This document shows positions 22,885-41,337 of a stretch of 45,050 bases of DNA, one piece after another. Both the position numbers and the translations under genes were made by a program. The stretch is from assembly GCA_903906135.1 (NCBI GenBank), contig CAIVJE010000064.1, positions 1-45,050 of the forward strand, in the 5' to 3' direction. The notes below the pieces were generated by a model, which did no database searches, was not told the origin of the DNA, and saw nothing but the letters and a program-made list of their open reading frames with translations. Positions within the stretch are counted from its first letter, which is position 1. Every line of letters begins with the position of its first letter. This DNA is from an uncultured Verrucomicrobiota bacterium (GTDB lineage Bacteria > Verrucomicrobiota > Verrucomicrobiia > Opitutales > Opitutaceae).

Positions 22885-22920
22885 TAAAAAAAATCCGCTA
22901 AATTTTGCTATTTAGCGGAT
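22885..22920 (-). terminator. Intrinsic terminator of tRNA-Asp
   Basis: On the minus strand a perfect 10-bp stem (arms 22911-22920 and 22893-22902, loop of 8) is followed directly by a run of eight T. It starts 9 bp after the tRNA-Asp 3' end, so it is a textbook Rho-independent terminator for that gene. Confidence 0.9.
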
Positions 22921-22928
22921 AAGGAAAC

Positions 22929-23005
22929 TGGCGGGATGGACGAGACTCGAACTCGCGACCTTCTGCGTGACAGGCAGACGCTCTAACCAACTGAGCTACC
23001 ACCCC
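22929..23005 (-). tRNA. tRNA-Asp (anticodon GTC)
   Basis: On the minus strand the acceptor GGGGTGG pairs with CCATCCC (one G-U). The anticodon stem TCTGC/GCAGA holds CTGTCAC with anticodon GTC for aspartate. The D-arm and T-arm (GCGAG/CTCGT with TTCGAGT) are normal, with discriminator G and encoded CCA. Confidence 0.96.
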
Positions 23006-24779: not shown

Positions 24780-25774
24780 GATTGGGCGGTGTCGATTTCA
24801 GCTAAGCGCCGGGTTAAAGCCGCCACTAGCCGAGGATAAAAATTAACTAACAAATCAGGGCAATTGAGTCCCGCGGCACTCGCGTGCCCGCCGCCATTGA
24901 ATTGCGCCGCAATCGTGTCCATGCGGTAAGAACCATGCTCCGCCCGCAGACTAGCCTTGATCGTGCCGGGACGTTCCTCGATGAGCACGCCGATTTCCAC
25001 CCCTTGAATGGAGCGGGCATAATCGACTAACCCCTCCGTGTCTTCAACCGTTGCCCCCACTTGCTCAAAAATCCCTTGCGGCAGCACCCCGAGGCAAATG
25101 CGCCCGCCGCATTCAAATTTAAGTGAACCAAGATAATGCTGGAGCAGTTTTAATTTACCCACTGACTCCCGTTCAAACAGCTCAATGCCGGCTTTGGCGG
25201 GTTGCGCACCGCAGGCGACGAGCTGCGCGCACAGCTGAAAAATGCGGCGCGTAGTTGAGGGGAAACGAAATTGCCCGGTATCGGTCATAATTCCCGTGTA
25301 TAATGCCAGCGCGGTGGTCGCATCGACCGGCAAAGCAGCATCAAAAAATAAACCCGCTAAAACTTCAGCCGTCGCCGCCGAATCGACATCGACAAAATTA
25401 TGCTGCGCAAAGCCCCGATTCGAAACGTGGTGGTCGAAACAAGCCAAGGGACTCGGAAATAATGCTTTCACGTGATCACCGGCGCGGGCGTGATCAGCAC
25501 AATCAGTAAATATCGCAAGTCGCCCGGCGAGCGCAGCATCATCCCGCGTGACCAAAGGGGTATCGCCGAGCAGAAATTTAATCCGCCGCGGCACGGGATC
25601 AGGATTCATGCACACGGCATCAATTCCCTGGGAGCGGAGCACGCGACAGAGTGCCACCTGGGAGCCGATACAATCGCCATCCGGGCGCTGATGACCAATG
25701 ACCACGATCCGTTGACCACGCAATTTCTCCAGCAAATCGGTCCACCGACCGGCAAATTGGGGATAATAGCTCAC
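24776..25774 (-). CDS. nrnA: DHH-family bifunctional oligoribonuclease / pAp phosphatase (NrnA-like)
   Basis: NrnA-type enzymes degrade very short RNA oligomers and dephosphorylate pAp, or act on cyclic-dinucleotide breakdown products. The 332-residue protein has the DHH motifs: [12 protein letters not shown] near residue 27, FTDCAD, FDHHVSN near residue 113, and a DHHA1 domain ending in the GGGHASAAG substrate motif. It keeps the metal-binding Asp and His residues. It lies between rbfA and truB with 4-bp overlaps on both sides, the order seen in many bacteria (rbfA-nrnA-truB). Confidence 0.93.
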
Positions 25775-26121
25775 GACTTCTTCTCAGCCTGATCAATCGC
25801 CCCGAGCAGTTGCTCGATACGTAAAGCCCGCGGGGCGTGATCGTCATGCACGAAAGTTATTAAGGGGACATGGCGAATAATAACATTTTTCGCCACCGCC
25901 CCGCGAATCTCCGTGCGCTTACTCAACAGCCATTTACCCGCGCGCTTAGCCTCGAGGGCGGCACCGAGCACCGAATAGAAAATCTTGGCCTCCCGCAGAT
26001 CACCCGTGATCTCTACTCCGGTAATAGTAATGGCCACTGACTCGCTGCTATAACGCGAATGCAAGTAAGCGCTGATTTCGCGCTGCATCAGCTCGTTGAC
26101 GCGAATAAGTCGGTTGCTCAT
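25771..26121 (-). CDS. rbfA: 30S ribosome-binding factor RbfA
   Basis: RbfA binds the 30S subunit and helps mature the 16S rRNA 5' region. The 116-residue protein has the single KH-like fold expected: an N-terminal helix RLIRVNELMQREISAYL, then ITGVEITGDLREAKIFYSV, then a final strand with VPLITFVHDD. It lacks only the variable C-terminal tail. It begins 83 bp after infB; that gap contains two hairpins. It ends with a 4-bp overlap with nrnA. Confidence 0.93.
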   Translation of the reverse strand: MSNRLIRVNELMQREISAYLHSRYSSESVAITITGVEITGDLREAKIFYSVLGAALEAKRAGKWLLSKRTEIRGAVAKNVIIRHVPLITFVHDDHAPRALRIEQLLGAIDQAEKKS

Positions 26122-26153: not shown

Positions 26154-26221
26154 TTTTGGGACCCGCGTCGCCGCGGGGGAAAAACCGTAAAGTGGTAATA
26201 AAATTTAGAGCGAGGCTCTAA
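26154..26221 (-). other. Two hairpins between infB and rbfA
   Basis: A perfect 7-bp inverted repeat (26205-26211 with 26215-26221) surrounds the infB stop codon. A second, GC-rich stem (26162-26167 with 26172-26177, loop TCGC) follows, flanked by complementary T5/A5 tracts. The first is followed by ATTTTATT on the minus strand, a weak terminator-like tail. They could tune rbfA expression relative to infB or mark an RNA-processing site. Confidence 0.4.
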
Positions 26222-28634
26222 CCTTTTGCACCTCGAAGCACTCGATCCGATCGCCGGGCTGATAGCCGTCATAGCCATCGAGGCGAATACCGCACTCGAG
26301 ACCCGCGCGGACCTCGTTGGCATCATCTTTAAAGCGGCGGAGCGTGCTAACCTTACCTTCAAACACGGAATCTTTACCGCGGCGAACTCGGGCCGTGGTG
26401 CCGCGATTAATTTTCCCTTCGGTGACCAAACAGCCAGCGACAAAACCCTTCGCCACCGGAAATACCTGACGAACTTCGGCGCCACCGGTTTTATTTTCCT
26501 TCAAATCAGGATCCAGCAGATCGGCCATCAACTCTTTCACCCGATCGGCGAGTTCATAGATGATCTCAAAGCTCTCGACGGTGACCCCATGGTGTTTGGT
26601 CAAGGCCGTGACGCCATTTTCCTGCTTCGTGTTAAATCCGATAATAACCGACTTCGAAGCGCTCGCCATGAGGACGTCGTTCTTGCTGATAATCCCGACA
26701 TCGGAAGCGACAATATCGAGGGAAACCTTGGCGCTCTTGATTCCCTCAAGAACATTCTTCACTGCCTCCAAGGAGCCAAAAACGTCGGATTTGATTACCA
26801 CCCGCAGCATCTTGCCTTGCGTGGCGGCGATATTGGCAAACAGCGCCTCGAGCGAAGTATCCTTCGGCGCCGCATCACCGGTCGTGGTCACTTTTTTCAG
26901 ATTATCTTCCGCTTCTTCCGCTTGTTTTTCTGCTTCGCGAACATTTTTTACCGCAACAAATTTAGCGCCGGAATCCGGAGCGCCCGACCAGCCAATCACG
27001 CGGACCGGCAAACCAGGAGGGGCCTCTTTAATATTGTTACCTTGGTCATCGAACATGGCGCGCACTTTGGCGAAATGCGGACCGCACACGATCGCATCAC
27101 CGATCCGGAGGGTGCCCCGTTGAATAATAACCGTGGCCAGCGGGCCGCGGCCCATGTCGATCTGTGACTCAATTACGACCCCACTGGCTTCCGCCTTGGG
27201 ATTAGCTTTGAGCTCGAGTACCTCGGCTTGGAGTAAAATCATATCGAGCATCTCGGTGATGCCCTGCCCCTTGATCGCGGCAACCGGCATGGTGACCGTC
27301 GTCCCACCCCAATCCTCAGGTGCGATCTGCCGTTCCTGCATCTGCTGCTTAACCCGCTCAATATTGGCGCCCTTCACGTCCATCTTATTGACGGCAACCA
27401 TGAGGACTACTTTGGCGTCGAGCGCATGCTGCAAGGCCTCATCGGTTTGGGGCATGAAGCCGTCATCCGCCGCCACCACGAGTACCGCAATATCCGTGAC
27501 CGAGGCGCCGCGCGCGCGCATTTTGGTAAAAGCGGCGTGACCAGGCGTATCGAGGAAAGTTACTTTATGCCCGTTATGCTCGATCTGGTAAGCACCAATG
27601 TGCTGCGTAATGCCACCCGCTTCCCCCGCGGCTACATTCGCTTTACGGATGGCATCCAGCAGGGAAGTTTTCCCGTGGTCGACGTGACCGAGAATACAAA
27701 CCACGGGCGGACGATGGGCGAGATTCTTGATATCCTCTTCGCGCGCTTTCTCCGCTTTGTTAATTTTGATGATCTCAGGCGCAACGGGTGCCACGACGGC
27801 TTCGCCGCGGTGCTTGATGTCGAGGAGAAAGCCATGCTTTTCCGCGACCTTGGTCGCAATCGCCTCATCGATGGACTGATTCATCGAGGCGAAGATTTTC
27901 ATCTCCATCAATTCCGAGATCAGTTTGAAAGGTTTCAGACCGAGCGCGACGGCGAATTCGCGGACAATAATCGGTGGCTTCAGATGAATCACCTTAACGC
28001 CATCCTCTTCCGTAACCGTGATGGTCGGGGCCGATGCGGAAGCTGCCGTCGGCAACTGCGGAGCAAATTTAGCCGGTGACGATACCGTCGAGACAGGCGC
28101 GCGCGGGATATTTACCGGCGGAGGCGCGACAGGCGATTTAGCTAAAGCTGGGACAGCGGGAGGCGAACTGCGCAAGGCTGGGGCCGGCGCGGGTTTGGGG
28201 GCCGACGAGAACGGCGCCGCTACCCGCGGGGATGGGATGGGAGGGAGTGGCGGGGCCTTCAGCACAGGCGCTACGGGCAATTTTGGTGCGAGCACGACGG
28301 GAGCCACCGGCGCCGGATTAGCAGCCGCGCGCGCCGCGGCTGCGGCTTTAATCACCTCTTCTTTCTCGCGGGCAATATCCTGCACCGATTTCACAAAAAC
28401 GCCCGGAGGTAATTTAAGCTTCGGCTCGGCCACCACGACGGGAGCGACGACGACCACGGGAGCGGCTACAGGAACCCCGTATTTTTTCTCAATCTCGTCG
28501 TAGTAAATTTTACTGACGGTGCTCGAGACCGACTTGGTATCCGCCGAGACGTAGCCCTGCTGCTTGAGCCAGACCAGCATGTCCTTGGGCTCAATATTGT
28601 ATTGCTTGGCGATCTCGTGGATACGGGCACTCAT
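26205..28634 (-). CDS. infB: Translation initiation factor IF-2
   Basis: IF-2 is the GTPase that brings initiator tRNA to the 30S subunit and promotes 50S joining. The 809-residue protein has an N-terminal IF2 subdomain (about 1-50). A long Ala/Pro/Val-rich low-complexity linker (about 55-205) comes next, then a second IF2-N domain and the G domain with GHVDHGKTS (K322), DTPGH and NKMD. Domains II-IV lead to the C-terminal fMet-tRNA-binding domain. The long Gly/Ala-rich frame on the opposite strand is only the complement of the linker. Its stop lies inside a 7-bp inverted repeat. It follows nusA by 32 bp. Confidence 0.97.
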   Translation of the reverse strand: MSARIHEIAKQYNIEPKDMLVWLKQQGYVSADTKSVSSTVSKIYYDEIEKKYGVPVAAPVVVVAPVVVAEPKLKLPPGVFVKSVQDIAREKEEVIKAAAAARAAANPAPVAPVVLAPKLPVAPVLKAPPLPPIPSPRVAAPFSSAPKPAPAPALRSSPPAVPALAKSPVAPPPVNIPRAPVSTVSSPAKFAPQLPTAASASAPTITVTEEDGVKVIHLKPPIIVREFAVALGLKPFKLISELMEMKIFASMNQSIDEAIATKVAEKHGFLLDIKHRGEAVVAPVAPEIIKINKAEKAREEDIKNLAHRPPVVCILGHVDHGKTSLLDAIRKANVAAGEAGGITQHIGAYQIEHNGHKVTFLDTPGHAAFTKMRARGASVTDIAVLVVAADDGFMPQTDEALQHALDAKVVLMVAVNKMDVKGANIERVKQQMQERQIAPEDWGGTTVTMPVAAIKGQGITEMLDMILLQAEVLELKANPKAEASGVVIESQIDMGRGPLATVIIQRGTLRIGDAIVCGPHFAKVRAMFDDQGNNIKEAPPGLPVRVIGWSGAPDSGAKFVAVKNVREAEKQAEEAEDNLKKVTTTGDAAPKDTSLEALFANIAATQGKMLRVVIKSDVFGSLEAVKNVLEGIKSAKVSLDIVASDVGIISKNDVLMASASKSVIIGFNTKQENGVTALTKHHGVTVESFEIIYELADRVKELMADLLDPDLKENKTGGAEVRQVFPVAKGFVAGCLVTEGKINRGTTARVRRGKDSVFEGKVSTLRRFKDDANEVRAGLECGIRLDGYDGYQPGDRIECFEVQKVRASL

Positions 28635-28666: not shown

Positions 28667-29893
28667 TTAGGGTCCAGAAACTTTGTTGATGACGTCCTGC
28701 GCCTCAGCCTCGGTGAAACCTGATTCGACCAAATCCTTAGCTTCGACGCCTTCAAAGGCAGCCGGCGAGTTGATGCCTTGGGTCACTAAGCGCTCGGCCA
28801 CCGCGGGATCAAATGCATAGGTCGTGATGAGCAAGCTGATGGCTTGAGCCCGTGGATCGACTGCGACGAGCTTGTATTCTTCGATGTCGAGGCGGCAGCC
28901 AACCAACCGCGAGGTCAGGCGCGCGTTTTGTCCCTTGCGGCCAATGGCGACCGCGAGGTCATCATTAACCACGCGGACGAGCAGACGCTTATTTTTTTCA
29001 TCAAGAATAATTTCGCGCGGCACGGCCGGCTTGAGCGCCTCAATCAACATTTCCTTCGTGTCGGTATGATACGGAATAATGTCGATTTTCTCGCCATTCA
29101 GTTCGCGCACCACGCTCTTCACGCGGGCCCCACGCGCGCCGACGCAAGCGCCGACGGGATCAACTTTGGGATCGGTGCTCGTGACGGCGATCTTTGTGCG
29201 ATAGCCTGGTTCGCGAGCGAAAGCCTCAATCTTGACCGTGCCATCAGCAATTTCGGTGACTTCGAGTTCGAAGAGGCGCCGAACAAATTTGGGACTCGCG
29301 CGACTGAGAATAATCTCCGGACCGCGACTGCCGTTCTCAATTTCTAGTAAAATACAGCGAATGCGCTCGCCGGGCGCGTATTCTTCACCGGGAACCTGCT
29401 CTTTGCTGGGCATCACCGCCTCGGCTTTGCCGAGGTCGATGAACAGGTCATTGCGCTCACGGCGGCGAACGGTGCCGCTGACGATGTCGCCGATTGAATC
29501 CTTAAAGTCATCGTAAATGCGCTCCTTCTCAAACTGACGGAGCTTTTGCATAATGGCTTGACGAGCCGTCTGCGCCGCAATGCGGCCGAGATAGGAAGGA
29601 TCAACTTCCTTATCGATGGTGTCGCCGACGACCGCACCGGGCTTCAGCGCCTGGGCCTTCTCGACGTGGATCTGCAGCTTCGAATCAGACACTGAATCCA
29701 CAACTTTCAGCTGCGACCAAGCCGTAAGCTGGCCGTTCTTAGCATTAATTTCGATCCTGAGTTCCTGTCCAGAGGTGACGCCCTTCAACGCGGCGGTTTT
29801 GATCGCGGTGACGATCGTGGAGATCATATCGGCACGGGGAATGCCTTTCTCCTTCTCCATGTATTCGAGAACCGACAAGATTTCGCTGCTCAT
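28667..29893 (-). CDS. nusA: Transcription termination/antitermination factor NusA
   Basis: NusA binds RNA polymerase and modulates pausing, intrinsic termination and antitermination. The 408 residues contain the N-terminal polymerase-binding domain (1-125), an S1 domain (about 135-200) and KH1/KH2 with [22 protein letters not shown] and later [12 protein letters not shown] short C-terminal helix-hairpin-helix-like segment ends in [15 protein letters not shown]. The acidic repeats of E. coli NusA are missing, as in many phyla. No rimP gene precedes it, although rimP-nusA-infB is the usual order. The start ATG at 29893 has no Shine-Dalgarno. The leader carries a promoter and an attenuator-like structure. 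Confidence 0.97.
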
Positions 29894-29913
29894 GATGTGT
29901 TTTGATTAATGTG

Positions 29914-29953
29914 AAAAAAAAAGCGGACCCGAGGGCCCACTTTTTAGAAAGTG
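29914..29953 (-). promoter_or_regulatory. Attenuator-like terminator/anti-terminator pair in the nusA leader
   Basis: On the minus strand the segment 29945-29933 pairs with 29930-29918 (13 positions, two of them G-U) and is followed by nine T (29922-29914), an intrinsic terminator 20 bp before the nusA start. Overlapping its 5' arm is a second perfect inverted repeat, CACTTT-CTAA-AAAGTG (29953-29938). Forming that stem would use up bases needed by the terminator. Two exclusive folds between a promoter and a gene is the layout of transcription attenuation. Confidence 0.6.
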
Positions 29954-29972
29954 AACTAGTTGTAGGAGGGCG

Positions 29973-30002
29973 AAGATATTAAACGGGTCGAACGCTTGTC
30001 AA
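29973..30002 (-). promoter_or_regulatory. Strong sigma-70-type promoter of the nusA operon
   Basis: On the minus strand a perfect TTGACA (30002-29997) is followed after 18 bp by TATCTT (29978-29973). Transcription would begin near 29966, so the terminator-like hairpin at 29945-29918 is inside the nusA leader and not simply the end of the upstream gene. Confidence 0.65.
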
Positions 30003-30025: not shown

Positions 30026-31234
30026 TCAGTGACTTGCACAAGCTTCATGCTGTAAAACCCAGCCCAGCAACCCCTGCGCGCAACCGTGACAAAGCGATTG
30101 TCCGCGCGGACCCGTCAGCCCCAGCTTGGGTAAAGCCCGTCGCAGCACGTCTGGGAAATCTCCTAAATACCAATAGAACCAGAGATTAAAGAGATCATCA
30201 CCGCCTTCCCGCGCCGCCAACAGCGGCAAGAAACCATCGCATACGAGATTATCTAAACGACTTCCCCCAACCGCGCCTCCCAATAATTCACGGACTAACT
30301 GCGTGCGCTGCAGTTTGAGGCCAAGGAGTTGTCGGGCGCGGCTAGGACTGACGCCCTCCCCTAGTGTAACGCGGTTGCGGAGCAGGCGACCCAAGCGCTC
30401 GGGCCATTCCGGTTGGTGTGTGACCCAGCGTTGATATTGCCGCAAGCGAGTGAGCGGATGATTCGCCGGTCGAATGCCCTGCCGCCGCCACGACACGTCG
30501 CTGGACGCGAAAATTTCAGCGGGCTCGATCCCTGCCCCCCAGCGCGCCAGTGGGTAATGAGTGGCCACCGCCAAAAAAGCGGCGCGATTTTTTTGATAAC
30601 CTAAAATTTCGAGCGCGGTCTGGTGCGCTGCTTCCATCCACCCCAGCTGCGCAATCCGGCGCTGCGCGAAATGCACTTTCTGCTGCCACCGGCGCTGTGC
30701 ATGGGCGCGCATGACCGCGCGGCGTTGGTCGATCGGCTCCGCCGCCAGCGCGGCGAAACGCTCCCACTGATCCCGGGCGGTGATGATTTCAAGCGCATCA
30801 TCGGAAGCGTATTCCTCAAGATCGCGATGCAACAGCGGCAGCAATACGAGCGTCGGCAGCACGCGACCATCAGCATGCTGCGCGGGCAATTCACCTTCGC
30901 TCGGCGGAAATAAGACAACATGCAGAACCACGCGGGCATACGCCGGATCAGCGGCATGCTGGTGCGCCCGCCAATCCGCCTGATGGAAATGAACCTCAAT
31001 GTCCCCCGTTATTTCCTGGCCAGCGATCACCACGCGCGCTCCATAAAAATCGGGGCCACCCAATAAATTCCACGCCCCCACCGAGCGAATCTGGACCGCG
31101 CGACCATCGGTCAACGTGGCCCGATCTCGGGCAAAATCTTCACGCAGCCAAATTTTCTGCACGACCCGCTCCGCCATCGTAAAGGGACCGTACAGTCCCT
31201 GCAGTTCCGCGACATAATTAAGTATAATGGCCAT
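30026..31234 (-). CDS. DUF2851 family protein
   Basis: This 402-residue protein matches the DUF2851 pattern: KIWLREDF, a GPDFYGARVVIAGQEITGDIEVH stretch (about residues 60-82), DWRAHQHAADPAYARVVLHVV, and a helical C-terminal half ending in a Cys-containing tail (LCHGCAQGLLGWVLQHEACASH). The last segment, with C-x2-C and C-H residues, could bind a metal or an Fe-S cluster. The family is common in Bacteroidetes and Verrucomicrobia and its function is unknown. It sits between mqo and nusA on the same strand, separated from nusA by a promoter and terminator, so it probably ends the rhamnose/mqo transcript or stands alone. Confidence 0.85.
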   Translation of the reverse strand: MAIILNYVAELQGLYGPFTMAERVVQKIWLREDFARDRATLTDGRAVQIRSVGAWNLLGGPDFYGARVVIAGQEITGDIEVHFHQADWRAHQHAADPAYARVVLHVVLFPPSEGELPAQHADGRVLPTLVLLPLLHRDLEEYASDDALEIITARDQWERFAALAAEPIDQRRAVMRAHAQRRWQQKVHFAQRRIAQLGWMEAAHQTALEILGYQKNRAAFLAVATHYPLARWGAGIEPAEIFASSDVSWRRQGIRPANHPLTRLRQYQRWVTHQPEWPERLGRLLRNRVTLGEGVSPSRARQLLGLKLQRTQLVRELLGGAVGGSRLDNLVCDGFLPLLAAREGGDDLFNLWFYWYLGDFPDVLRRALPKLGLTGPRGQSLCHGCAQGLLGWVLQHEACASH

Positions 31235-41257: not shown

Positions 41258-41337
41258 CCCCAACCGCATCTGCCTTGCTCGATGAGTGGGCCCCGATCTC
41301 AGCGTCAGGGCTCGCTTTTCATTTTAGCTTCCACCTC

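Follow-up and report, generated by a model that had tools for sequence, protein, structure and literature searches.

A candidate attenuator of the rimP-leader type attached directly to nusA in the Verrucomicrobiota

In the window, by which we mean the whole 45,050-nt stretch of Verrucomicrobiota DNA analysed here, nusA-infB-rbfA is probably governed by a promoter-proximal attenuator of the rimP-leader type, which is attached directly to nusA and would exert negative feedback through NusA. Most of the related genomes that were sampled share this start-then-stop layout, by which NusA would probably limit its own production. The attenuator reading of the nusA leader, put forward in a preliminary description of the locus, is supported as far as sequence goes. 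New here is a putative rimP-leader-like attenuator on nusA, in a phylum in which RimP goes undetected; its competing stem has good support in the window's order.

Every element of the proposed switch lies on the minus strand, as seen by inspection of the sequence, and so do the surrounding genes. nusA (28667-29893, 408 aa, ATG at 29893; Pfam NusA_N 4.5e-31, KH_5 3.7e-25) is followed on the same strand by infB, encoding IF-2 (26205-28634; Pfam), and then by rbfA (25771-26121; Pfam RBFA 4.4e-23). On its 5' side, and outside the switch, lies a gene with a DUF2851 match in Pfam (30026-31234), and the 132 nt between the end of this gene at 30026 and nusA hold the promoter, the hairpin and the T tract. 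The promoter elements are present as previously described, with a -35 hexamer TTGACA (29997-30002) and, across an 18-bp spacer, a -10 hexamer TATCTT (29973-29978), which together match the consensus in 10 of 12 positions and rank at the top of 6 promoter-like sites in a 12-kb scan. As shuffled sequence yields 5.7 such sites, the promoter is unexceptional by consensus alone. The -35 element is also supported by the conservation of TTGAC, which is found 45-75 nt 5' of the hairpin at all 63 terminator loci of the window's own family, at 27 of 28 terminator-bearing loci from other families of the order and, further out, at 12 of 13 from other orders of the class and 8 of 14 from other classes. Across 86 loci of the order, the -35 element and the hairpin lie a median of 58 nt apart (interquartile range 57-59). 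Promoter geometry alone would place the transcription start 7 nt past the -10 hexamer, at about 29966 (+/-3 nt).

Some 21 nt downstream of this predicted start, the predicted intrinsic terminator begins, as a hairpin of 12 pairs at 29918-29945 (5' arm 29945-29934, loop 29933-29930, 3' arm 29929-29918) with a run of nine T at 29914-29922. The 77 nt from the predicted start fold with -17.7 kcal/mol (z -4.1), a stability that none of 200 shuffled sequences reached. A pattern scan, which returned 12 terminator-like sites in all, omits this hairpin, and its identification thus comes from folding and conservation. Between the T tract and the nusA ATG lie 20 nt (29894-29913) in which no Shine-Dalgarno-like sequence is apparent by eye, so that the terminator's position and the leader's lack of a ribosome-binding motif both agree with the preliminary description. 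A transcription start 3' of the hairpin is possible, though these 20 nt alone separate the T run from the ATG. Attenuators of the leader-peptide, T-box and riboswitch kinds were ruled out: there is too little room between start and terminator, no start codon is seen there by eye, and Rfam gives no match. Within the 20 kb of the window searched, four tRNAs alone reach the Rfam gathering score and nothing at the leader does; at E<=5 the leader has seven sub-threshold matches, the best being L20_leader with 18.4 bits against a cut-off of 58.7. No leader match at gathering score was obtained in 11 relatives either.

How strong is this terminator? It had been described as weakened by G-U pairs, which is borne out only in part. 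The stem contains two wobbles and, when treated as a hairpin of 10 pairs, comes 20th in stability of the 25 terminators present in 445 kb (made up of the window and a stretch of a congener), but its T run is the longest of these 25. The terminator thus combines a rather weak stem with a rather strong T tract. The hairpin before nusA in the congener ranks 13th by stability in this set. Two other hairpins of the window may be recorded here: another terminator with a run of eight T, at about 22893-22920 on the minus strand, directly follows a tRNA (22932-23005, minus strand), and a second hairpin with GTGGG in its 5' arm, at about 41284-41317 on the plus strand, has a long loop-containing stem and a short T run.

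The terminator and its T run are conserved through the order and at most of the phylum loci sampled, as the preliminary description would lead one to expect. Of 115 genomes, 104, the window's own included, gave a nusA match and 11 gave none; three of the 104 (G006, G056, G085) were excluded because the nusA match lacked the gene start. The upstream DNA of the resulting 101 order loci was examined together with that of 20 loci each from other orders of the class and from other classes of the phylum. Under a strict rule, which asks for a score of 15 or more, 6 or more T in 8 and a position no further than 130 nt from the start, a terminator is present at 63/63 sampled loci of the own family, 28/38 of other families of the order, 13/20 of other orders and 14/20 of other classes. 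The order total is 91/101 by this rule and 92/101 by a looser score, locus L073 making the difference. Some of the loci that miss the strict rule retain a hairpin with a longer loop or a shorter T run (L111, L133 and L142, for example), and at others, among them L060, L062, L076, L094-L097 and L101, the terminator is clearly absent though nusA remains. L060 and L062, from one genus, still have TTGACA despite the missing terminator. At eleven loci (L129-L131, L133, L137-L141, L146, L147) the start was read one base off, which leaves the hairpin position unaffected.

Where the terminator is present in the order, its architecture varies little. T runs measure 7-9 at 84 of 86 loci, the remaining two having 6 and 11, the hairpin ends a median of 26 nt before the nusA ATG (range 13-47, 86 loci), and the consensus structure is conserved over 71 order sequences. 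The 5'-arm sequence GUGGG recurs across the phylum sample. Five loci from other orders (L106, L110, L113, L115, L117) have a variant arm, AAGUCGG, preceded by a separate GC-rich inverted repeat (GCTGG...CCAGC or similar). Among named loci, 31 of 80 were examined, and 20 of these have a terminator within 150 nt of nusA, including Oleiharenicola sp., whose nusA is 90% identical, Pelagicoccus mobilis and Methylacidiphilum. In the other 11 (L216, L217, L219-L227) none was found within that distance; four of these are labelled Kiritimatiellae, Kiritimatiellia or Verrucomicrobia, one is Pseudobacteriovorax and six are Firmicutes.

The conservation of the hairpin does not follow that of the gene upstream. 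DUF2851 lies 5' of nusA at 55 of the 101 order loci, always on the same strand; the end of the match usually lies some 130-170 nt from nusA. By the strict rule a terminator is present at all 55 of these loci and also at 36 of the 46 others. The longest opposite-strand frame was listed in twelve loci and ten such frames were scanned with Pfam; nine match a family, seven of them clearly, namely QueC (L067, L072), isocitrate/isopropylmalate dehydrogenase (L086), ALAD (L087), an ABC protein (L099), a GFO/IDH/MocA protein (L070) and a UxuA-like protein (L078). The matches in L073 and L082 are less clear, and the frame in L084 has none. All seven loci with a clear divergent upstream gene keep the terminator by the strict rule. 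As the upstream gene is variable and sometimes divergent, the hairpin is not simply the terminator of that gene.

The arrangement also stands out against the genomic background. In a complete congener genome, 7 of 238 control reading frames, nusA among them, have a terminator within 130 nt, and only nusA combines it with TTGAC at the spacing seen in the leader; the start codons of these control frames are guesses (the first ATG or GTG of the longest frames). Under a different rule, a 400-kb stretch of the congener, selected to include nusA, holds 21 terminators, of which the single promoter-proximal one is that of nusA. R1, a covariance model derived from 71 sequences of the order, scores the nusA leader in the own genome at 60.6 bits and the next site at 26.2, so that nusA is the only convincing match among the 150 sites scored of 1124 first-look candidates. 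Two sites near contig ends (G000:C3:297-355 and C224:11-69; L123, L124) share an identical R1 score of 26.2 bits and are perhaps one repeat.

The preliminary description had further pointed to a second, perfect inverted repeat using the 5' arm of the terminator. Such a stem is indeed there, although it is perfect in the inner six pairs only. This candidate antiterminator hairpin, P1 (29935-29956, minus strand; arms 29956-29948 and 29943-29935), has 9 pairs, seven Watson-Crick and two U.G. Its 3' arm lies wholly within the 5' arm of the terminator, and the two structures are therefore mutually exclusive. On folding the growing transcript, P1 stands alone (-8.3 kcal/mol) up to a length of 40 nt and is replaced by the terminator at 44 nt. 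As the full terminator (-17.7 kcal/mol) is far more stable than P1, antitermination would have to be kinetic or aided by a factor.

Is P1 maintained by selection or a by-product of composition? In single sequences it is no more stable than expected from shuffled upstream segments, with a mean z of -0.48 at 63 own-family loci and -0.55 at 23 loci from other families, and p<=0.05 at 13% and 4% of them, respectively. A swap test, which compares how upstream segments fold when joined to the native terminator arm and when joined to permuted ones, gave a clearer result for the 23 loci from other families of the order: at the best of 12 settings the native combination averages -5.8 against -4.4 kcal/mol for the permuted (z -4.3), and over all 12 settings z runs from -1.5 (p 0.07) to -4.3, with p at 0.06-0.07 in two. 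Among the controls, four shuffled sets gave z of -1.0 to 1.6 and a segment 25 nt further upstream z 1.0, while the reversed segment gave z -1.8 (p 0.04), so that composition accounts for part of the signal. With one sequence each from 14 families plus one own-family member, p falls to 0.001-0.006, as against 0.04-0.13 for the reversed controls. In the own family P1 is kept, but neither partner shows much variation, and the test has little force there (p 0.01 to 0.24). It is likewise weak outside the order, with z -1.0 to -1.8 and p 0.03-0.17 over four settings and 34 loci (L136 among them mis-anchored) and reversed controls at z 0.0 to -1.2, and given this weak signal a restriction of P1 to the order is not established. 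Nonetheless, these comparisons give good support for the view that P1 and the terminator arm coevolve within the order, over and above the part of the signal that composition explains.

A single base of the shared arm illustrates the competition between the two stems. In the terminator, the U of GUGGG is wobble-paired with G in 63 of 71 order sequences; its partner in P1 is A at 71 of the 79 order loci that have this U. Outside the order, the search expression matched 24 of 40 loci, and there the corresponding terminator pairs are U-A in 17, U.G in 4 and C-G in 3. A wobble in the terminator combined with a U-A pair in P1 is what we would expect if the order had given up terminator strength in favour of P1. 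Conservation of the arm sequence for recognition would keep this U as well, however, and since the order sequences are related, the wobbles are not independent events. Tentatively, one may imagine that the terminator in the nusA leader is ancient, that it stayed on nusA while RimP goes undetected in the phylum, and that the window's order rebuilt it into a two-state kinetic switch, in which P1 became established and the U of GUGGG came to form a wobble in the terminator while pairing with A in P1. NusA would then tune the race between the stems, possibly also by reading the GUGGG arm.

How, then, could the leader work? From the sequence and its comparison with known systems we infer promoter use, termination, P1 as antiterminator and, by precedent, NusA as effector. 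RNA polymerase would start about 53 nt 5' of the end of the T tract, and the earliest emerging RNA would fold as P1. As further RNA emerged, the terminator hairpin would displace P1 and transcription would stop before nusA. NusA bound to the polymerase would favour folding of the terminator hairpin, such that much NusA would lead to early termination and little NusA to read-through, amounting to negative feedback. Counting against a feedback switch is that the strict rule is missed by 10 of 38 loci from other families of the order and by 7 of 20 and 6 of 20 of those further out.

Among the alternatives, the one that fares best, though we regard it as unlikely, is a regulated leader terminator that responds to an effector other than NusA, such as IF-2, RbfA, another elongation factor (NusG, for example) or nucleotide supply sensed at the T tract. 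Promoter and terminator are conserved and the sequence names no effector, but precedent speaks for NusA: the mechanism described for Bacillus subtilis is NusA-stimulated termination in its own leader (PMC12288461), and Naville and Gautheret (PMC2965389) cite two papers from 1985 on repression of the Escherichia coli operon by NusA. RimP, for its part, is excluded within the limits of its Pfam model. Searches with this model (PF02576) detected it in 0/110 relatives, 0/145 phylum genomes and 0/40 genomes outside the order, in overlapping sets, compared with 10/14 controls. That RimP goes undetected while the leader stays on nusA argues against RimP as the sensor, which makes it an unlikely candidate here within the reach of the model, and argues for NusA or another product of the remaining operon. 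Of these, NusA is the likeliest effector of the window's leader by precedent.

An unregulated terminator that merely fixes a low level of read-through into nusA, with no feedback, appears improbable. A T run that is the longest of 25 fits such a role, as a long uninterrupted tract could terminate well without NusA, and P1 is unexceptional when considered individually; yet the conserved spacing between promoter and hairpin, the conserved 5'-arm sequence and the coevolution of P1 in the order speak for regulation. More doubtful still is that the terminated RNA of about 53 nt is a small RNA acting in trans: while it would have its own promoter and terminator and a GUGGG arm recurrent across the phylum sample, its unpaired parts vary among relatives, and no second convincing copy turned up in the own genome among the 150 sites scored of 1124 first-look candidates. 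Finally, that the hairpin belongs to the upstream gene and nusA owes its expression to read-through or to a start downstream of the hairpin is scarcely credible, even with the window's DUF2851 gene on the same strand and ending 132 nt before nusA, given that the hairpin persists next to other and divergent upstream genes, that a conserved -35 element lies about 58 nt 5' of it and that the distance to the ATG is so short, at 20 nt from the T run in the window and a median of 26 nt from the hairpin end in relatives. In the window, the hairpin could serve both roles, as terminator of DUF2851 and as nusA leader. If the feedback attenuator is real, its leader of about 53 nt would be a very simple test system for the choice that NusA makes between two RNA stems.

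With which known systems does the nusA leader compare? The closest is the rimP-leader, the most ubiquitous attenuator and the first in the list of Naville and Gautheret (2010, PMC2965389). As described there, it consists of a short terminator with a conserved GGGc...gCCC stem, located before rimP-nusA-infB at 4-130 nt from the first gene; the general motif has no visible antiterminator, one being reported in a tandem form in some Gammaproteobacteria, and NusA is given as the best candidate for the effector, with RimP as a possibility. The leader described here likewise has a terminator hairpin and a T stretch before a nusA-infB operon, the consensus of 71 order sequences contains the GGGc(...)gCCC stem of PMC2965389, though a single G.U pair (GGGCC/GGUCC) sets the window and its closest relatives apart from it, and the distance between terminator and gene, which in the window is 20 nt when counted from the last T, falls within the 4-130 nt given in that paper. 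It differs from the rimP-leader of PMC2965389 in that nusA, rather than rimP, is the first gene, and from the general motif described there by the competing stem found in the window's order. Rfam RF01770 (rimP) has no match in the own genome at E<=1 and is not among the seven matches of the leader at E<=5, and the nusA leader is thus not a member of that family. The words Verrucomicrob-, Opitut-, Akkermansia and Methylacidiphilum are absent from the main text of PMC2965389, as are nusA, rimP and Verrucomicrob- from that of PMC11109978, and judged by titles and the beginnings of abstracts, we found no report of a nusA leader for Verrucomicrobiota among the open-access papers listed.

A hairpin 5' of nusA is also present in all six Firmicutes loci examined (L219, L220, L224-L227), with the arm (G)AGUGGG, or AGGUGGG in L219. 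There, T tracts are short or interrupted, and in five of the six the hairpin lies 0.5-0.74 kb 5' of nusA, presumably before rimP. Of these loci, R1 matches L224 alone, and weakly (14.1 bits, E 0.81); it does not match the E. coli K-12 locus, and common descent with the Firmicutes hairpins is thus no more than possible. For B. subtilis, a 2025 review (PMC12288461, citing Mondal et al. 2016) states that NusA autoregulates its synthesis by stimulating termination in its own leader, which bears out the precedent invoked in the preliminary description. B. subtilis belongs to another phylum, and rimP (ylxS) is the first gene of its operon (PMC2965389). NusA dependence, reported for B. subtilis in PMC12288461, is attributed to the window's leader by precedent. 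Both have an intrinsic terminator in the 5' leader of an operon encoding NusA (PMC12288461), and in both this terminator stands between a promoter, predicted here from sequence and conservation, and the nusA operon.
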